From Deltaproteobacteria bacterium GWC2_42_11 (GTDB lineage Bacteria; Desulfobacterota; GWC2-55-46; UBA9637; GWC2-42-11), in NCBI GenBank assembly GCA_001797495.1, contig MGPS01000004.1, forward strand, positions 1 through 51,291: a stretch of 51,291 bases of DNA, written 5' to 3'. A program made the position numbers and the translations under genes. The notes beneath the pieces were generated by a model, which made no database searches, was not told the DNA's origin, and saw only the letters and a program-made list of their open reading frames with translations. Within the stretch, counting starts at the first letter, position 1. Each line of letters starts with the position of its first letter. This document shows, in pieces, positions 10,051-30,355 of this stretch.

Positions 10051-11169
10051 ATGGCTAAAAAGGACTACTACGATATTCTCGGTGTAAATAAAACCGCCGT
10101 AGAAGATGAGATTAAAAAAGCATACCGGAAACTTGCAAAAAAATATCACCCTGATGTAAATCCCGGCAATAAAAACGCAGAGACAAGATTTAAAGAGATA
10201 AGCGAGGCATATGAGGTCCTGAGTGATACACAGAAAAGGGCGCAGTATGACAGGATGGGGTCTTTCCCCTTTAAACCGGGCTTTGAAGGAGGCAGGACAT
10301 ATACAACTGGTCCAGGCGGGTTTAATATAGGAGATTTCGGTTTTGATATTGGTAATATTGGAGGCATAGAAGACATATTCGGAGATGTTTTCGGCAAAAA
10401 GGGCAGCCAGTGGCCGGATGTAAATAGCGGCAGGGATATAGAATACAGGGTTGAACTTAGTTTTGAGGAGGCTGTAAAGGGAACCGAGGTAAGGGTTACT
10501 GCAGATAAAGAAATAGTCTGCTCTGCATGCGGAGGCAGCGGGGCAAAGCCAGGCGCAGAAAAAAGGCAATGCACTGTATGTCATGGAAAAGGGCAAAAGG
10601 AAGTTACAAAAGGCGGGTTTACGATAAGGCAGACCTGCACTGCGTGCGCAGGCACTGGTTACACAACTATAGCAGAGCAGTGTTATGTGTGCCATGGACA
10701 GGGACGGGATATACTACGCGAGGGGATAACGGTAAGGATACCACCGGGTATTGATGATGGTTCAAAGGTTAGGATTGCAGGCAAGGGAAGTCCCGGCATA
10801 GGAGGCGGTAAGCCTGGGGACCTTTATATAATCACAAGTGTAAGATCGCATCCATACTTCTTAAGAAAAGGAAATGATATATATATTGACCTGCCAGTAA
10901 CCATTGTTGAGGCAAGCCTTGGTGCAAAGATAAAAATACCCACCGTAGACGGCACTACACTCCTGACCATACCACCTGGGACTTCAGCAGGACAAAAGTT
11001 GAGATTAAAAGGGAAAGGCATAGAAAATAAAAAATCAAAGACAAGGGGCGATCAATATGTTATAATTCAAATAATAACGCCCAGGGACTTAAGTCAGAAG
11101 GCTCAGGATTTATTAAAAGAATTCCAGAAGACACATCCATACGACCCTCGTTCAAATAAAGGATGGTAG
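10051..11169 (+). CDS. dnaJ: Chaperone DnaJ (Hsp40, type I)
   Basis: J-protein cochaperone that stimulates DnaK ATPase activity and delivers substrates. 372 aa with full type I layout: a J domain (1-70) with the HPD motif at residues 33-35, a Gly/Phe-rich region (about 75-125), four zinc-binding repeats ([32 protein letters not shown]), then the C-terminal substrate-binding domains ending near residue 350. All eight zinc cysteines are present. ATG at 10051 has no visible Shine-Dalgarno because the upstream spacer is repeat sequence, so expression may depend on coupling to dnaK. The clp gene follows after 9 nt. Confidence 0.97.
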
Positions 11170-11178
11170 GTTTATACC

Positions 11179-13458
11179 ATGTTAGAGATAGACAGCATAA
11201 GAGAGCGATTGACACTACGGGCAACCAGGGTGCTTGAGGGAGCCATTGAACAGTCCCAGAAGAGACAGCATTACTATCTTGGAGTTGAACATATATTCGT
11301 CTCTTTTGCTAAAGTTGAAGCAGTTTTCTTTAACGAGATGATGCTGGATTTAAACCTTGATACAAGGCAGATCATATCTTTTGTAAATGAACACCTGAAT
11401 ATCTGCCGTCAATACATAGGCATTGGATTGAAAGTTCCGCCTGCAACCAAAAATGTTTTCAGGCTGGCGTGGGAAGAGGCACAGAGATGGGACAGGGATA
11501 TGATAGACTCTACCGACCTTCTGGCAGCAATATTCATGGATACTAACTCAACCCCTGTAAAGATATTCAAGAGTTTTGGCATAGAACCGGAAAGCGTGAG
11601 ACGGACTATAAACATAAGGGTACGAACTCTGGAGGAGGTTGAAGAAGACCTTAAAAAGAAGTTTGAACTCCCTCCTAACCTTAAACACTTTGCTGTAAAC
11701 CTGAATAAACTCGCACATTACGATAAACTCCCGCCGATAATAGGCAGGGATAAAGAGATACGGCAGATAATGGAGACATTATGCCATGTGGAGCGGAGTA
11801 ATTCTGTCATGATTATAGGAGAACCGGGCGTCGGTAAAACTGCTGTTGTTGAAGGGCTTGCGAGAAAGATAGAGTTCAGCCAGCAAGAAGTCCCGAAGAG
11901 GCTCAGGAATAAACAGATTCTAAACCTCCAGATGAACTCAGTTGTTGCAGGCACAATATTCAGGGGAATGTTTGAGGACAGGGTTGAAAAGATAATAAAG
12001 GAACTCAGGGAGAGGAATAATATTATACTGTTTGTTGACGAGGCACATACCCTTATTGGCGCAGGTTCAGCAATGGGGGTGCCGTCGGATGCTGCTAATA
12101 TATTCAAGGCAACGCTTGCAAGGGGCGAGGTGCAGATTATAGGTGCGACGACCTCTGCTGAATACAAGGAGTATATAGCCGAAGATGAGGCACTGGCAAG
12201 GAGGTTCAGGGTCGTACATATAGACGAGCCATCTGCAGAAGACACGAAGAAGATACTTTACGGCATAAGGGGAAGGCTTGAAAAGAACTACTCGGTCAGT
12301 ATAGCCGATGATGCCATCGATACAGCAATTGATATGTCAGAGAGGTATATGAGGAGCCTGCGCATGCCCGATAAACCAATCAGTTGGCTCGACACAGCAT
12401 GTGTAAAGGTGGAGATAAACAAGAGGGACAGACCTGTAAACAGGGATGATATTGCAGAGGTAGTATCCCAGGAAACAAAGATACCAAAGGATATGATATT
12501 CAGGGACACTACAGCCAGGTTCAGGAATATAGAAGATGTTATATCGAAAAGGGTTATAGGTCAAAAAGAGGCAATAACAAAACTTGCTAAGAGACTTAAA
12601 CTAAACAAAGGGCCATTAAAGGAAAACTACTCAAAACCTGACGGTGTATTCCTCTTTCTCGGACCAACAGGTGTCGGCAAGACAGAACTCGCAAAATCTT
12701 TGGCAGAGTTCCTGTTCGGCGACGAAAAGAAGTTGATACGGCTTGACATGTCCGAGTACAAGGATTCTACAGTGGCAGTCGATAAACTGATAGGCATGCC
12801 CCGCGGCATAGTAGGATCTGAACGGGGCGGAATACTTACAAACCAGATTCGGGAAAACCCGTATTCGATCCTCCTCCTTGATGAGGTTGAGAAGGCAAAC
12901 CCTTATGTGCTTAACCTGTTCCTGCAGGTCTTTGATGAGGGGTGGCTTACAGACGGCAGGGGCAAGAGGGTTTATTTCAGCGATACTGTTATTATCATGA
13001 CAAGCAACCTTGGAACAGACGAGTTTAGGAAATTTACAAAACCACTCGGCTTTCTGCAGGACGGTTCAGACATAAATGACCTGAAAAAAAATATAATTAA
13101 AGAGGTAGAAAATACATTTTCACCTGAGTTCCTTAATAGGATAGACGAAATAGTAGTATTCTCCCCTCTTACGAGAGATGAGGTCAGAAAGATTACAATA
13201 ATCCATACTGAAGAAATCAGGAAGCATATGAAAGATTTCAGCAAAACATTGTATATTACAGACGAGGCAATTGATACTTTGGTAGAGACAGGATATAGTG
13301 TTAAATACGGTGCAAGGTTCCTGAAAAGGAATATAGATGAAAAGGTGAAGATACCGATAACACTCTGCTGGAAGGAAGGAGATGCCTTCAGGGCAGATGC
13401 CTTTGACAGCGAAATAGTTGTCAGCAGTATGAACGAACGAGAGTTAATCCCGGTTTAA
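11179..13458 (+). CDS. ClpA-sized double AAA+ unfoldase with a changed D2 pore loop
   Basis: 759-aa Hsp100/Clp ATPase. Order: Clp N-domain (about 1-150), D1 with Walker A GEPGVGKT (214-221) and Walker B NIILFVDEAHT, then no long coiled-coil middle domain, then D2 with Walker A GPTGVGKT (495-502), Walker B SILLLDEVEKA and arginine finger FSPEFLNRID. Length and absence of the middle domain resemble ClpA. A Leu-Gly-Phe sits where ClpP-binding Clps carry an IGF/IGL-like loop (KPLGFLQDG), so partnership with ClpP is possible but inferred. Oddity: the D2 pore loop reads GMPRGIVG (539-546), not the usual GAPPGYVG, so the threading tyrosine is isoleucine. The D1 loop is AGTIFRG, keeping an aromatic. 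It sits between dnaJ and usp in the chaperone island. Confidence 0.88.
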   Translation: MLEIDSIRERLTLRATRVLEGAIEQSQKRQHYYLGVEHIFVSFAKVEAVFFNEMMLDLNLDTRQIISFVNEHLNICRQYIGIGLKVPPATKNVFRLAWEEAQRWDRDMIDSTDLLAAIFMDTNSTPVKIFKSFGIEPESVRRTINIRVRTLEEVEEDLKKKFELPPNLKHFAVNLNKLAHYDKLPPIIGRDKEIRQIMETLCHVERSNSVMIIGEPGVGKTAVVEGLARKIEFSQQEVPKRLRNKQILNLQMNSVVAGTIFRGMFEDRVEKIIKELRERNNIILFVDEAHTLIGAGSAMGVPSDAANIFKATLARGEVQIIGATTSAEYKEYIAEDEALARRFRVVHIDEPSAEDTKKILYGIRGRLEKNYSVSIADDAIDTAIDMSERYMRSLRMPDKPISWLDTACVKVEINKRDRPVNRDDIAEVVSQETKIPKDMIFRDTTARFRNIEDVISKRVIGQKEAITKLAKRLKLNKGPLKENYSKPDGVFLFLGPTGVGKTELAKSLAEFLFGDEKKLIRLDMSEYKDSTVAVDKLIGMPRGIVGSERGGILTNQIRENPYSILLLDEVEKANPYVLNLFLQVFDEGWLTDGRGKRVYFSDTVIIMTSNLGTDEFRKFTKPLGFLQDGSDINDLKKNIIKEVENTFSPEFLNRIDEIVVFSPLTRDEVRKITIIHTEEIRKHMKDFSKTLYITDEAIDTLVETGYSVKYGARFLKRNIDEKVKIPITLCWKEGDAFRADAFDSEIVVSSMNERELIPV

Positions 13459-23276: not shown

Positions 23277-24272
23277 TTAAGGCTTAAATCTAGAAAGGGT
23301 TTCGTATAAGACAGGGTCATATTTTTCTATATGCCCGGCAAATGCATCTTCAAGGAGGAGACGGTTTAAACTTATGCGGTTCTTTTCATCAGGTGGTTTA
23401 TTAAGCAATTCTTTTGTTCCTTCTGACAATACTATGCCCTCAAAACGTTTTTTATCATATATACTCCCGCGTTTAAGGGCAGCATTTATTTCATTTATCA
23501 AATCCGCTGCCAGTCCTTCCGCTATCAATGTTTTGGCATAATATGCATTGATTACCCTTTTTTTCAGTTCCTCTGAAAACTGCTGCAGGAGATATGCAGA
23601 AACAGGCTTCTTTGTATCCATTAATAGATTAACTACGGCATTGAGGTCTTTAAAATCCCCTTTACTGAAAAGTGGTGAACCGTTCAGCATTTTTGAGAAT
23701 TCAAAAAAGAATTGATTTATTGCAGTCCCTGTCAATGAGTTGATAGTGTTATATTTTTGTTCTGCTGCCTGTTTCGGGTCTGAGGTGTCCAGAAAATACG
23801 GTTCTACAACCTGAACTATCACCTTTCTGGACAAGGTCTTCTGGATATTATTTGACTTAATAAAAAATGTTCCTGATATTCTTACTACCCAGTACGGCGG
23901 GGAACTCCCGCTGATTTCATACGAGAAACCATCAACCTGCATAGAAGCGGTTAAATCAAACTTATCCTTTGATACAGAAGATTCTTCAGGAAATATCTCA
24001 ACATATTCAAAGTGCCTGTCAAGTATATCCCTGTAATAGACCGGCATTATCCTGCCTGATGGAAATATATATTTTGTATCAGTCTGCATCCCCTCTTTTA
24101 AATCGCTTAGGGATTTCTTATCAACTACCAAAGCCACCCGCAGCGGATACCTTTTTTCAACTTCAATATTATTTAAGATTGTCTTGCCTGATACAACTAT
24201 TGTGCTGTTCTCCACGCATCCTGAAATTGAGAGGATAATGATAGAAATTATAACTTGTATAAACTTACCCAT
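23277..24272 (-). CDS. Lipoprotein of the CHAT operon, unknown function
   Basis: 331-aa lipoprotein. Signal peptide MGKFIQVIISIIILSISGC ends in a lipobox with Cys19 as the lipidation site. The residues after Cys (VENS) give no inner-membrane retention Asp. The N-terminal half contains PLRVALVVDKKSL and then PVYYRDILDRHFEYVEIFPE, a layout like YajG- or LptE-type small lipoproteins (beta strand, helix, then strands). That is a fold-level impression only. The C-terminal half is helical. The gene starts 4 nt after the CHAT protease stop, so it is very probably co-translated and acts with it at the envelope. Confidence 0.85.
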   Translation of the reverse strand: MGKFIQVIISIIILSISGCVENSTIVVSGKTILNNIEVEKRYPLRVALVVDKKSLSDLKEGMQTDTKYIFPSGRIMPVYYRDILDRHFEYVEIFPEESSVSKDKFDLTASMQVDGFSYEISGSSPPYWVVRISGTFFIKSNNIQKTLSRKVIVQVVEPYFLDTSDPKQAAEQKYNTINSLTGTAINQFFFEFSKMLNGSPLFSKGDFKDLNAVVNLLMDTKKPVSAYLLQQFSEELKKRVINAYYAKTLIAEGLAADLINEINAALKRGSIYDKKRFEGIVLSEGTKELLNKPPDEKNRISLNRLLLEDAFAGHIEKYDPVLYETLSRFKP

Positions 24273-24276
24273 GTGC

Positions 24277-27180
24277 CTACTTCCTTGTCCCGAATAGGTT
24301 AAATGCTGACCAGAAGAAAGGATGCTGGAACTGTTTCATTGTCTCAATCTGAGATTTCTGGAGCGATTTGCTCTTAGACATGCCTGCCAGATTCTTATAA
24401 AAAACGTCCATCAATACACTTGTAGCCCTGTCATCAACCCCCCAGAGGGAAGATATCATTGAACGGGTTCCGGCAAAAAAGATGCCCCTCTGCAGCCCTA
24501 TCAGTTCATCGCCGCTCTTGTTCTTGCTCAAACCGCTTTCGCATGCAGAAAGTGTAACCAGAGAGGCATTCCATCTCGTTGAGAAGAGTTCTGCAGCTGT
24601 CAGTGCACCACCTATTGTTTTATCTCCGCCTGTAAAAAGTATCCTTGAGTTGAGAGGGGTCTGCTCATCATATATGCCGTGTGCAGCAACATGAATGTAA
24701 TCATAATTGCTGCCGTTCTCCTTGACAAATGATTTTGCTGCCTTATCTCTTGTCAGAAGTGTTGAACCTGGTAAAAGTTTTGATACATTTACAGCCTCCT
24801 CCTCTGCAAACTTGAGGTCAAGGGTGGGGTTGCCTACAACCAAAGCCTTTTTATTACCAATAGAGTCTCTGCCTTCTGTCAATTTGAGTACAGTTATGCT
24901 AGGAGAATATGATATGGCAAATCTTTCAATCAGATATTGTCTTCCATCAAATAATGCCTGAAATGGTATGTAGTGCAGTACACCGTGGGGGACTATAATA
25001 AGTTCATCCCCTTTTATCCTGTCTTCAACAGGCTGTATCAGGAGGCTGTAAAAATATTTTAATAATTCACTGCCTTCGCCCCTGTTTGTTATATTTTCTC
25101 TCAATTTATCAACAGTTGCCCTAACCTCTCTGATATTAACCGGCACTGATGCAACACTTATATTCTCGCTGTTGACAATAAAACAATAAACCCTGTCACT
25201 CGTAAGATAGTATTCTAAAAGGGTAGTACCAGGCGGAACAATCTTTTTTATCTCATCAGATGCAATGGGCAGGACACTTGAAATGGACAGGATTTCAATA
25301 TCCTCCTTGTCAAGCGCAGGCTTGCTCATTAAACCTTTAATGGTAACACCCCTTGAAGACCTCTTTGCAAATTCATTTATCTGTTCAGAGGTTATATTCC
25401 TGTTGTTTAAGAAATCATCCTCTTCTTCCTGTGCTGTAATGATATTGCTGTATCTATCTGTCTGCTCTCTGCTCTTGAGATTGAGGCGGGTATTCCCGAG
25501 TATATCCACAAAAGCCCTTGACTTTGAACGTTCCACATATTCAAGAGCAGTGTCAGGCTTATTAAGAGATACAAGGAGACTTATTATCCTTTCATGCAAT
25601 TCTGTCTTTGTCTCAAAGAATATTATTCTCTGCTGTTCTGTCAGTATGGATGAACGTTGCTGTTCTATTATGCTGGATGCCTCTGCATAATGCGTAAATG
25701 CCTTGTCTTTTAAACCTTCTGCTTCGTATGCCTTCCCGAGTTCAAAGAAATAATCTGCCATCTCAAATCTGTCCAGATAACGGTTTAGTTTAAGGTAGTA
25801 TGCGGTCAGTTGTATTGATAATTCATCTTTCAGGCGAATAAGGTTTTGTTCTGTTCGTATGGCAACTGATGACTGTCTGGCATAAGCAATCATTTCTATA
25901 TGCATTCTTGATATTTCAAAGGATTTCTGCATTATCTGTTTTATCATCTGGGCAGGAGAAGATTTTTTTGATGGCGCCCTTTTAGGACCATCTTCGTCAT
26001 CTTCAAACATCTCTGGTTCAGACTCCCGCACAGTCTGCTGTTTTTCTTCCAGATATTTAATCTCTTCCTGAGATTCCTTGTTGACCTTTGCCACGAGGTT
26101 TCTTCTCTCATTATCAGCATCCACACCCAATCTGTCCAGTTCATCTATACCTGCTAAAAATTCTTCCATGTGTTTTATGCCTTGTTTGCTGCTGCCGAGT
26201 TTGATGTATGAGATACCAAGCCAGTAGTGGAGAAGATTTACTGAATTCAGGCTGCTTATGGATTTTACAGGTATTCTTTCTAATGCCTTTTCTCCATATT
26301 TAATAATTTTTTTAAGGTAATTTATGTCGTTTGTGCTGCGAAAATCCCTGTAAGCCTCAGCAGCAAGGATGCGGTTTGCATTGAATTCATCATAAACGCC
26401 TGTCTGTTTTGCAAACGAATGCAGGTGGTCTAAAAGTTTTATGCTGCTGCTATCCTCTTTAACTGCCTGCATGTCTGGCCTGTTTTCTATGCCGAGTTTG
26501 AGTTTAAGGAAGTCTTTCCTCGCTTTAATCCTTGCTCCAACACCTTCAAAATCCAGTAACCGTATCTGGCTTATAAGAGACTGGGAGATTTTTATGTCCT
26601 TATTATTAAGATGGGCAAAATAGTAGAGGAGGCGCCTCTGGTTGTAATAATCAGAAACAGGAGACTGATTAATGCCTGTCTTCCGTATCTTTTCAAAAAT
26701 CCTTTCTGCCTTATCATTATATTCCTGTGCCCTTCTGAAATCAGAAACACCATATGTGTATATGTCAGCAATATCGTCAAGGATAAATAATTTGCCTTCT
26801 ATATCATAATCTTCATACTCAGGGGTGAGTTGACGCCTTTTAAGAAAGTCTTTTACAGGGTCTTTTGAACCTTTTTCGGCAAACTGCTGTGTTATTATTG
26901 TTTTCTCTGTTTCAGTAAGGTCTATCCCGGACTTTGCCCATATCTCCATTATCTGGATTGCGGCTAATTCCTTTTTTAATAAAGAGAGTAACTGCTCATA
27001 ATTCTTGCCTCTTTCAAGATGATAGGTGTAAGAAAATGATTCTGAAGGACCGAGACGCGGGAAGTTTAAATTATTAATATCTGCCTTATGATTCTGGGCA
27101 GATGAATAACCTGCTGTCAAAACCAGCGCTGAAATCAAAAGACATAAGACAAAAGATTTCTTCATATCCATATCTGTCAA
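24277..27180 (-). CDS. Exported TPR-CHAT caspase-like protease
   Basis: Up to 967 aa. A signal peptide (KKSFVLCLLISALVLTAGYS then SAQN) is followed by a long helical TPR-type region (about 40-600), broken by a charged low-complexity linker (about 380-415, EMFEDDEDGPKRAPSKKSSP), and a C-terminal CHAT domain (about 670-967). The catalytic dyad is present: His834 in YIHVAAHGIYDEQ and Cys880 in LVTLSACESGLS. CHAT proteases are caspase/separase relatives often fused to TPR sensors and activated by partner binding. Most known examples act in the cytoplasm; this one is predicted to be exported. Start is uncertain: TTG at 27180 overlaps the upstream stop, or ATG at 27171 or 27165; none has a clear Shine-Dalgarno. 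Middle gene of a three-gene operon. Confidence 0.88.
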   Translation of the reverse strand: MTDMDMKKSFVLCLLISALVLTAGYSSAQNHKADINNLNFPRLGPSESFSYTYHLERGKNYEQLLSLLKKELAAIQIMEIWAKSGIDLTETEKTIITQQFAEKGSKDPVKDFLKRRQLTPEYEDYDIEGKLFILDDIADIYTYGVSDFRRAQEYNDKAERIFEKIRKTGINQSPVSDYYNQRRLLYYFAHLNNKDIKISQSLISQIRLLDFEGVGARIKARKDFLKLKLGIENRPDMQAVKEDSSSIKLLDHLHSFAKQTGVYDEFNANRILAAEAYRDFRSTNDINYLKKIIKYGEKALERIPVKSISSLNSVNLLHYWLGISYIKLGSSKQGIKHMEEFLAGIDELDRLGVDADNERRNLVAKVNKESQEEIKYLEEKQQTVRESEPEMFEDDEDGPKRAPSKKSSPAQMIKQIMQKSFEISRMHIEMIAYARQSSVAIRTEQNLIRLKDELSIQLTAYYLKLNRYLDRFEMADYFFELGKAYEAEGLKDKAFTHYAEASSIIEQQRSSILTEQQRIIFFETKTELHERIISLLVSLNKPDTALEYVERSKSRAFVDILGNTRLNLKSREQTDRYSNIITAQEEEDDFLNNRNITSEQINEFAKRSSRGVTIKGLMSKPALDKEDIEILSISSVLPIASDEIKKIVPPGTTLLEYYLTSDRVYCFIVNSENISVASVPVNIREVRATVDKLRENITNRGEGSELLKYFYSLLIQPVEDRIKGDELIIVPHGVLHYIPFQALFDGRQYLIERFAISYSPSITVLKLTEGRDSIGNKKALVVGNPTLDLKFAEEEAVNVSKLLPGSTLLTRDKAAKSFVKENGSNYDYIHVAAHGIYDEQTPLNSRILFTGGDKTIGGALTAAELFSTRWNASLVTLSACESGLSKNKSGDELIGLQRGIFFAGTRSMISSLWGVDDRATSVLMDVFYKNLAGMSKSKSLQKSQIETMKQFQHPFFWSAFNLFGTRK

Positions 27181-27950
27181 ATACGGTCAATAATCCCGAT
27201 AATATCAAGCATTGATGAATAAGATAATGCGGACAAAAGGCTTCTCTGCTGATGAAAGTCCCTGCCTGCACTGCCCACAACATGAATTGGCTGACTTACT
27301 GATAATTTTTCATTGAGGGTCGCAGATTTTTTTATTGGAAAGGTTTTAACTACCTCATAGGTTTTTCCGTCAATAATTTGTATGTTCAAATCTACAACTG
27401 CCTTATCATCTGAACAGTTAAAGCCTTTTACAGCACCGAATATAATATAATTAGTATTTTTTGGTATCTCACTGATGCTGCTGACAACCCTGATATCAAG
27501 TCCGTAGACCTTCTTAATAATCTTGATGCTGCTGGCTAATATTTCCTGATAATTAGCAGGCATAAAGACCCCTTCAAACTTAATATCTTTTGGCTTTGGA
27601 GAATAAAACTCCCCTGTAAAGACCCTTTCATGCGGCAGGAGTTTATCGGGAAGTTTGTCTGGCAGCGGCAGAAAATTAAGGACTGCTATCTTTGCCTTTT
27701 CAATCTTGGATGAAAATTTGATCTTTTCAACTGCCAGATTTGAAAGGTCATCATCGCTGTAAGATTTATCGAATGAAATAAAACAGGATATAAAAAAGAT
27801 TAGAGAAGATGCAAAAGAGGCAAATTTTCTTGCATTGCCCCGAAAATATCTTTTTGCTATTGCTGTCTGTCCCGCTGGCAAAGCGTTTGGATGGGAGGCT
27901 TTTAGAGGCCACGGGTTTACAGGCGGGACAGGCAGCAACAAGATTTTCAT
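27177..27950 (-). CDS. Probable exported protein of the CHAT operon
   Basis: About 257 aa from ATG 27950; the ORF is open to 28043 but that extension has no support. A hydrophobic stretch KFASFASSLIFFISCFISFD probably acts as signal or anchor. The body reads KAIVAVLNF-type: KAKIAVLNFLPLPDKL, then a helix region YQEILASSIKIIKKVYGLDI, NTNYIIFGAVKGFNCSDDKA and VVDLNIQIIDGKTYEVVKTF. This order (strand, helix, 'yiifGav', 'vdlniqiidgkt') resembles envelope proteins of the CsgG / TolB-N / YajG kind; function unknown. Oddity: the first 30 or so residues are encoded by a 77-bp inverted-repeat element, so the original N-terminus may be displaced. The stop overlaps the start of the CHAT gene. Confidence 0.7.
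   Translation of the reverse strand: MKILLLPVPPVNPWPLKASHPNALPAGQTAIAKRYFRGNARKFASFASSLIFFISCFISFDKSYSDDDLSNLAVEKIKFSSKIEKAKIAVLNFLPLPDKLPDKLLPHERVFTGEFYSPKPKDIKFEGVFMPANYQEILASSIKIIKKVYGLDIRVVSSISEIPKNTNYIIFGAVKGFNCSDDKAVVDLNIQIIDGKTYEVVKTFPIKKSATLNEKLSVSQPIHVVGSAGRDFHQQRSLLSALSYSSMLDIIGIIDRI
27861..27937. mobile_element. 77-bp MITE-like element with terminal inverted repeats
   Basis: Ends TGCTGTCTGTCCCGC (27861-27875) and GCGGGACAGGCAGCA (27923-27937) are inverted copies with one mismatch in 15. The interior has no gene. Outer flanks continue an imperfect AAAATCTT-type symmetry. The element lies within the reading frame of the exported-protein gene and encodes much of its predicted N-terminus. 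Confidence 0.65.
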
Positions 27951-28165
27951 GCCTTTTTGTGCGCCAATGGCTCGTGAGGGTTTCATATAAATACGGAGTT
28001 TTTTGTCAATTAGATGCCAGCCACCGCAATAATAAACTAACACTTATATGGTTTTCAACAAAAATCTTTATGGTTAACAAAGAATACTTCCTCCTGATTT
28101 TTTCCTCTTGCAAGGGTTGGCATAACAGATGTATAGTTGGTGTCAAGCATCTCTTAAATATAGCA

Positions 28166-30355
28166 ATGGGCAAGGCTTCCAAGAAAAAGAGATTAAAAAC
28201 CTCCACTCCACCACAAGAGATATCAGATAATAATATCAGCACCGGTATTTTATCAAAACCCTTCCTGCACATCTTTTTTATAATAACACTTGGTATTCTA
28301 ATATATTCAAACACCTTTAAAGCGCCTTTTGTCTTTGATGACATCAGTATGTATATTGTGGAGAATCCTGCCATCAAAGATTTCAAATATTTTCTGGATG
28401 CCTCAAGATTAGATGAGACTTCTGTTGACAAGGGTTTTAGGGAACAGTTTAAAAACCGAATAGTTGCACATCTCACTCTTGCCATAAACTATAAACTTCA
28501 TGGATTGAATGTTATAGGCTATCACATCTTTAATCTGGCAGTTCACATTATTAACGCGCTCCTTGTTTACTATCTTGTGAGCCTTACATTCAAAGCCCAT
28601 TTTTTTAAAGACCGTCGCCCTGCAGCCTTTTCTGATGCACAATATAGAGGTATGTTCGCACTTTTCTGCAGCCTCTTATTTGTATCCCACCCTCTGCAGA
28701 CTCAGGCTGTAACCTATATCAGCCAGAGGCTTGCATCCCTTGCTGCACTGTTTTACCTGTTTTCGCTTGTTCTGTACATCAAGTCAAGGCTTTCAGAATC
28801 CGGCGGCAGGCGATACGGATACTATCTTTTGTCCATCCTTGCAGCAGTATCGGCGGTAAAAACAAAGGAGATTTCTTTTACACTCCCTCTGGTCATTACT
28901 ATTTATGAGTTGATGTTTCTTGAAAGCAGTACAAAGAAAAAACTCTTTTATCTGATTCCATTTTATCTTGTAATTGTCCTGATACCCTTGAGCCTTATCA
29001 GGACTGACAGTTATTCATTTGAAAGTATCATCAGCAGTATGGGGCAAAAATCCAAAGACCCTGATGCAATACCCAGGCTGGCTTATCTCTTTACACAGTT
29101 CAGGGTTATTGTGACATATATAAGACTATTTTTTATCCCTGTAGACCAGAACCTTGACTATGATTTTCCTGTATACAGTTCATTTTTAACCCCTGAGGTA
29201 TTCCTGTCTTTCCTATTCCTTTTTTTGATATTTACTTCTGGTGCATGCCTCTTTTATTGTTCAAGATATACATATAATGCCAAGAGATATGGATACAGGC
29301 TGATATCATTCGGCATATTTTATTTTTTTATAACATTATCCACTGAATCGAGCATTATCCCCCTGAGAGATGTTATATTTGAGCATAGGGTCTATCTGCC
29401 TTCAGCAGGTCTTATTATTGCAGTTGCAGCAAGTGTATTTGTGATTACAGGCAGTGACAAAAACAAGACAACTGAAAAGGCAATGACAGCGGTACTGTTG
29501 CTTATAATATTGGCATTTTCAGTTGCGGCATATGCAAGGAATTCTGTCTGGAAGGAACAGATAGCATTATGGGGAGATACAGCCAAAAAGAGTCCGTTAA
29601 AGGCAAGGCCGCATTACAATTTAGGGGTAGCATATGCTGAAAAAAAACAATTTGAAGATGCTGTAAAGGAATATCTAATGGCAATACAGATAGACCCGAA
29701 TTATTATTTAGCGCATAATAATCTGGGTTTCATATACGATAAGCAGTCTAAATTAGAAGATGCTGTTAAACATTATGCAATTGCAATAAAGATAAAGCCT
29801 GATTTTGCTGAGGCGCATAACGGTTTTGGTTTGGCATACGAAAAGCAGTCCCGTTTTGAAGAGGCTGTTAAGGAATTTTCAGAGGCAATAGGGATAAAAC
29901 CCGATTATCACGAAGCACACTATAATCTGGGCAATGTATATGCAAAACAGGGGCGCACAGGAGAAGCCGTTAAGGAGTATTTGGAGGCAGTAAGGATAAA
30001 GCCTGATTATACAAAGGCATACAACAATCTGGGTGTTGTTTACAGCAAGGATGGAAGGTTTGATGAGGCTATTGAGGCATTCAGGAACGCCTCAAGGTTT
30101 CAGCCTGATGATTTTTCTCTGCATTACAACCTTGGCAAGTTGTATATTATGAGCAGCCGTTTTGATGAGGCAATAACCGAATATCTTGCAGGCATAAAAC
30201 TCAAGCCTGACTTCGCAGAATTATATAATGACCTGGGTGTAAGTTATCTTAAAAAGGGGCAGGCAGAAAAGGCTTCTGATGCATTCAAAACCGCCTTAAA
30301 ACTCAACCCTGATTTTGCAGAGGCTGTCAGAAACCTTGAAGGCATAAACAGATAG
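28166..30355 (+). CDS. Polytopic membrane protein with TPR tail (TMTC/GT-C-like)
   Basis: 729 aa from ATG 28166 (MGKASKKKRLKTSTPPQ). The first 30 residues are basic and cytoplasmic. A hydrophobic region of about 10-12 helices follows (about 32-470), with an acidic FVFDDISMYIVENPAI motif right after helix 1. An acidic motif at that position is a hallmark of GT-C glycosyltransferases such as protein O-mannosyltransferases and TMTC proteins. Seven consecutive 34-aa TPR repeats (about 475-715) begin KARPHYNLGVAYAEKKQFED, suggesting binding of a protein acceptor. Transferase activity and lipid-linked sugar donor are inferred. The ORF opens upstream to 27809, but that part reads through the 77-bp repeat and is not credible. 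No Shine-Dalgarno is evident. Divergent from the CHAT operon. Confidence 0.82.
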   Translation: MGKASKKKRLKTSTPPQEISDNNISTGILSKPFLHIFFIITLGILIYSNTFKAPFVFDDISMYIVENPAIKDFKYFLDASRLDETSVDKGFREQFKNRIVAHLTLAINYKLHGLNVIGYHIFNLAVHIINALLVYYLVSLTFKAHFFKDRRPAAFSDAQYRGMFALFCSLLFVSHPLQTQAVTYISQRLASLAALFYLFSLVLYIKSRLSESGGRRYGYYLLSILAAVSAVKTKEISFTLPLVITIYELMFLESSTKKKLFYLIPFYLVIVLIPLSLIRTDSYSFESIISSMGQKSKDPDAIPRLAYLFTQFRVIVTYIRLFFIPVDQNLDYDFPVYSSFLTPEVFLSFLFLFLIFTSGACLFYCSRYTYNAKRYGYRLISFGIFYFFITLSTESSIIPLRDVIFEHRVYLPSAGLIIAVAASVFVITGSDKNKTTEKAMTAVLLLIILAFSVAAYARNSVWKEQIALWGDTAKKSPLKARPHYNLGVAYAEKKQFEDAVKEYLMAIQIDPNYYLAHNNLGFIYDKQSKLEDAVKHYAIAIKIKPDFAEAHNGFGLAYEKQSRFEEAVKEFSEAIGIKPDYHEAHYNLGNVYAKQGRTGEAVKEYLEAVRIKPDYTKAYNNLGVVYSKDGRFDEAIEAFRNASRFQPDDFSLHYNLGKLYIMSSRFDEAITEYLAGIKLKPDFAELYNDLGVSYLKKGQAEKASDAFKTALKLNPDFAEAVRNLEGINR

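Follow-up and report, generated by a model that had tools for sequence, protein, structure and literature searches.

The main finding of this study is that an exported TPR-CHAT protein with an intact His-Cys dyad is encoded in a compact operon together with two specific partner proteins, both of which are predicted to adopt the fold of envelope ring or scaffold lipoproteins, and that the same gene order recurs in two other genomes. The reading that we prefer, to which we give an even chance of being right, is that of a periplasmic or outer-membrane-associated CHAT proteolytic switch controlled by partners of the PelC/CsgG/LptE fold. The partnership itself between the CHAT protein and the two envelope proteins is well supported, and it is the docking, the proteolysis, the substrate and the trigger of the switch that we infer.

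The operon lies on the minus strand of the window, by which we mean the whole stretch of 51,291 nucleotides that was analysed, and contains the following features.

23277-24272, minus strand: downstream lipoprotein gene (331 aa; lipobox ...LSISGC at Cys19); predicted PelC/GNA1162/FlgT/LptE-type domain at about residues 35-200 and a helical C-terminal extension that the relatives lack
24277-27171, minus strand: gene for the TPR-CHAT caspase-like protein (964 aa from ATG 27171; 967 aa from TTG 27180)
24289-25065, minus strand: CHAT domain (Pfam PF12770)
24541-24543, minus strand: codon of catalytic Cys880 (C877 from the ATG), aligned with C627 of Sb-TPR-CHAT
24679-24681, minus strand: codon of catalytic His834 (H831 from the ATG), aligned with H585 of Sb-TPR-CHAT
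25732-27105, minus strand: N-terminal region specific to this CHAT type, the signature used in searches for further copies
27097-27171, minus strand: Sec signal peptide of the TPR-CHAT protein, MDMKKSFVLCLLISALVLTAGYSSA, without a lipobox Cys
27177-27950, minus strand: upstream exported-protein ORF (257 aa from ATG 27950), conserved part about 27177-27824
about 27835-27987, no strand assigned: dispersed imperfect palindromic repeat of about 150 bp, between two divergent genes
28029-28058, minus strand: candidate sigma-70-like promoter, TTGAAA-18-TATTAT (10/12, a consensus match only), upstream of the repeat

The three genes overlap or nearly touch, as an earlier note on this DNA had described: TTG 27180 of the CHAT gene overlaps the stop of the upstream ORF, which ends at 27177, ATG 27171 lies 6 bases past that stop, and 4 bases separate the CHAT gene from the lipoprotein gene. 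Export of the CHAT protein and integrity of its dyad, both proposed in the same note, are borne out by several lines of evidence. The Pfam CHAT match is very strong (E=5e-63, 213.7 bits vs a cut-off of 24), and the protein is the sole CHAT in its own 1.75-Mb genome. All 16 relatives in our alignment have the dyad residues His834 and Cys880 (967-aa numbering) unchanged. When the profile is aligned to PDB 7x8a, this pair coincides with H585 and C627 of Sb-TPR-CHAT, the catalytic residues of Craspase, whose activity is abolished by mutation of C627 (PMC9729208). First searches of the PDB with three- and four-row profiles gave no match, and deeper profiles did. The TPR part of the name fares less evenly, as the family profile strongly matches TPR structures in the PDB but the window protein itself shows a single TPR_2 (E=0.001), which is below the Pfam cut-off. 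The signal peptide, KKSFVLCLLISALVLTAGYSSA, is a good one without a lipobox Cys, no internal transmembrane segment is predicted in the window protein (best KD 1.18), and the homologues in the two other operons, L002 and L016, are lipoproteins with lipoboxes IMACA and CCGCA, respectively. An extracytoplasmic location, as read from these sequences, is well supported.

Conservation of the neighbourhood, a check that had been set beforehand, was confirmed by these two operons. We scanned bacterial and archaeal species, each represented by one genome, and this revealed a relative of full length in L002, a MAG with the label Syntrophobacterales. There, an upstream exported protein is followed by a TPR-CHAT protein of 969 aa and then by two lipoproteins in tandem, both related to that of the window. 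The third copy, L016, which was found by a profile search with the upstream protein, reads upstream protein, TPR-CHAT lipoprotein and downstream lipoprotein. Conservation rests on these three known copies, which have gene order and strand in common and in each of which the upstream gene overlaps the CHAT gene or almost adjoins it. All three come from one phylum, which the label of L002 suggests is Thermodesulfobacteriota; the phylum lists drawn for the window genome and for L002 appear to be the same. The window's CHAT protein is 41-42% identical to those of L002 and L016 over its full length, with about 55% identity in the CHAT domain and 34-35% in the N-terminal half, no other part of the protein being as well conserved across the three operons as the CHAT domain; the upstream proteins are orthologues (33-34% and 28% identical), and the downstream lipoproteins are relatives at 23-26%. 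Comparison of the sequences strongly predicts that the three genes are a tightly coupled unit kept together between genomes. The set is rare, with one match per approximately 395 phylum genomes in each draw, the type-specific N-terminal region being found only in the window genome and in genome G441. Searches of about 226-250 genomes each found neither partner family without other operon parts. One weak partner match (G443/G064) was a false positive, a glycosyltransferase-like ORF, and further weak matches were seen in G957 (E=0.0035) and G024 (E=0.006). Carriage by a mobile element or phage was rejected, because relatives are absent from viral contigs, the similarity of plasmid CHATs is confined to the C-terminal half and the upstream protein occurs on no plasmid. 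Also rejected was a conserved DNA element 5' of the operon in L002 and L016, which is a dispersed repeat of those two genomes (about 70 bp, 93% identical, just upstream of both operons) found at L002:5128-5198, 10727-10793, 12352-12417 and 13332-13421, around the operon, and near L016:4590-4660.

The predicted folds of the two partners are the other notable finding. Neither has a Pfam, NCBIfam or PDB sequence match above cut-off. Their AlphaFold2 models were built from 3-4 sequences and are of modest confidence overall, with mean pLDDT values of 68 (upstream) and 65 (downstream), with confident cores, pLDDT being mostly 85-94 in the strands and helices of the upstream protein. In Foldseek searches, the upstream model matches PelC (best, E=5.7e-7), HP0492/HpaA, FlgT, GNA1162, DUF330, LptE and CsgG, while the downstream model matches an Acinetobacter (A. 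baumannii) minor lipoprotein (best, E=2.5e-6), FlgT, GNA1162, LptE and PelC. Both models fall in the same fold class, and both partners are on this basis strongly predicted to have the fold of the envelope ring/scaffold lipoproteins PelC, CsgG, LptE, FlgT and GNA1162, a PelC/LptE-type fold being common to functionally unrelated lipoproteins. Sequence homology between the two partners was looked for and is undetectable, and the viral fold library gave no match at E <= 0.001. All three operon products carry predicted export signals, either a signal peptide or a lipobox, the latter being LSISGC at Cys19 in the third gene product, which is indeed the lipoprotein that it had been taken for; these signals and the envelope-lipoprotein folds uphold the earlier description of two envelope partners.

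Export of the upstream protein is less simple in the window than in its relatives. The earlier assignment of 27177-27950 to an exported protein stands for its conserved part, but the start at 27950 and about 45 codons after it are dispersed repeat. Queried against its own genome, this repeat gives 54 matches, which we count as some 40-50 copies because some matches are the two strands of one palindrome; the copies examined are mostly intergenic or at gene ends, and the repeat folds better than most shuffles (z=-2.1). Two divergent ORFs also take their 5' ends from it, namely 27177-27950 (minus strand) and the long form of 27809-30355 (plus strand), of which the likelier start is ATG 28167. Every in-frame ATG, GTG or TTG before the hydrophobic segment of the upstream protein lies in the repeat or upstream of it, none being found 3' of it, and the orthologues lack the approximately 45 repeat-encoded residues. 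The signal peptide has therefore been either displaced inward or damaged by the repeat, and the gene, as its sequence reads, has here either a repeat-borne start with an over-long n-region or an impaired export signal.

These features could mean that the whole set is decaying in the window genome, the insertion having deprived the upstream gene of its native start and of the n-region of its signal. We find this quite improbable, since the three frames are open, the dyad is intact and the starts within the repeat (ATG 27950 and TTG 27881) still precede the hydrophobic segment and provide a basic n-region, even though no in-frame start remains past the repeat and the extra 45 aa have no counterpart in the orthologues. 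A different objection concerns topology. The L002 and L016 CHAT proteins have a hydrophobic stretch in mid-protein (residues 385-414 approximately, KD 1.46 and 1.69), which could be a membrane helix that would change the topology, so that the N-terminal half would be exported while the chain returned and left the CHAT half in the cytoplasm. This segment is missing from the window protein and from most exported relatives examined, and in one relative a fusion to a TPS secretion domain would put CHAT outside, which makes a cytoplasmic CHAT half the most doubtful of the alternatives considered here.

Two further explanations accept the envelope location and dispute the function. In one, which we regard as unlikely, the CHAT protein would have a structural role, serving as the scaffold of an outer-membrane complex for export or assembly, with a dyad that is secondary or serves self-processing only. 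The modelled PelC/CsgG/LptE-type fold of both partners would suit such a role, as would the docking of TPRs on PelC in the PelB/PelC pair, and 3.4 kb downstream of the L002 operon lies a gene for an exported protein in which a CsgG domain and a WSC domain are fused (L002:13513-14325). However, best conservation of the CHAT domain and an invariant His-Cys dyad would be unexpected in a mere scaffold, and neither among the window ORFs nor on the L016 contig are beta-barrel, polysaccharide or amyloid genes present inside the operon. In the other, a role in defence that the earlier note had also raised, the cell would be killed or walled off when a partner senses injection by a phage or competitor. 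CHAT relatives do act in type III-E CRISPR immunity (PMC9729208), and the sparse distribution of the set is like that of defence genes. Against this, PADLOC finds no convincing system, giving no more than a weak JetA match in L016 and, in the CHAT region, weak partial matches to BovA, there are no phage relatives and plasmid relatives match the C-terminal half only. The neighbours examined include no defence genes. Those of the window are serS, tRNA-Ser, cytochrome assembly, a TPR membrane protein and an amine oxidase, and L002 has a TonB receptor there. The neighbours, together with the PADLOC and viral-contig results, thus lend no support to a role in defence, which we consider very unlikely. 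The parts in surface stress or maturation that the earlier note had also suggested are hypothetical.

How, then, might a CHAT proteolytic switch in the envelope work? The CHAT protein would dock on the partners through its helical-repeat half, by analogy with PelB, whose TPRs dock on the PelC ring, and the partners would both hold the protease in place and keep it in check. The His-Cys dyad would be freed by a cue, either a conformational one or one from the envelope, and the freed enzyme would then cleave a particular envelope protein. The simplest candidate would be one of the two partners, in the way that the TPR-CHAT of Craspase cuts the co-encoded Csx30. A bolder version, which we put forward as speculation with the odds clearly against it, is an extracytoplasmic pathway of separase/caspase type, in which CHAT sits on PelC/CsgG/LptE-fold partners at the outer membrane and cuts a partner when the envelope is disturbed, so that the complex is gated or remodelled.

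Export of a CHAT protein is not new in itself, because exported CHATs are common in the phylum. CHAT is present in 45 of 197 phylum genomes, and 27 of the 33 CHAT ORFs inspected pass a signal-peptide heuristic, about a third having a lipobox; the heuristic is lenient, with 63 of 129 other ORFs passing as well, so that only clear signal-peptide cases count. The genes beside these CHATs include DUF4384, DUF928, M48, HtrA-like and CHASE2-cyclase genes. At L069:13507-16686, CHAT is fused behind a TPS secretion domain (PF05860) and probably sent to the cell surface, and L069:3654-4532 encodes a DUF928 protein beside another exported CHAT. At L061:3360-8466, an exported CHAT lies between two protease genes of the same strand, one for a TPR-containing M48 metalloprotease and the other for an HtrA-like trypsin/PDZ protease. 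At L003:1901-14033, exported caspase-like genes form a run that includes two TPR-CHAT lipoproteins in tandem; around these, C14 caspases with SUMF1-like, DUF4384 or PDZ-S41 regions can be recognised by eye. CHAT proteins are exported by many bacteria, our literature search found no functional study of such an exported one, and to our knowledge the CHAT proteases of known function work in the cytoplasm, in CRISPR immunity. What is new here is an exported CHAT with two specific envelope partners, other exported and uncharacterised CHATs being already common in the phylum. The conserved and compact set is a tractable test case, with a dyad aligned to that of Craspase, a structural precedent in TPR-PelC and two partners that are candidates for substrate or regulator, and it could show whether signalling of the caspase/separase type operates in the bacterial envelope.

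Comparison with known systems places the operon between several of them. Closest in enzymatic terms is the TPR-CHAT/Csx29 protein of Craspase (type III-E CRISPR; PDB 7x8a, 7y9x), which likewise combines helical repeats with CHAT, has the aligned dyad and is co-encoded with small partner proteins. Only the CHAT part aligns with the window protein (E about 2e-9), and Craspase is cytoplasmic, bound to gRAMP-crRNA and without a signal peptide, whereas the window operon is exported and has no CRISPR genes: no gRAMP/Cas7-11, Csx30/31 or CRISPR array adjoins the TPR-CHAT gene, and there is no PADLOC CRISPR match among the operon proteins. The exported stand-alone TPR-CHAT lipoproteins (for example L003, L006/L017, L060 and L065) are 34-44% alike over the C-terminal 490 aa or so and share the dyad and a signal peptide or lipobox; they lack homologues of the two partners and differ also in the N-terminal half and in their neighbours, which are DUF4384, C14 caspases, M48, HtrA or others. 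The predicted fold of both partners resembles that of CsgG, GNA1162, LptE, DUF330 (PqiC-type) and FlgT proteins, although neither matches these families in sequence, and we know of none of these proteins that pairs with a CHAT. Finally, the PelBC polysaccharide export system, in which a ring of twelve PelC lipoproteins docks on the TPRs of PelB (PMC12141448), offers the parallel of a TPR scaffold with PelC-fold partners, PelC being the best PDB match of the upstream model; unlike the CHAT protein, PelB is a beta-barrel and not a protease, and the upstream protein of the window, with about 12% identity, is not a lipoprotein.
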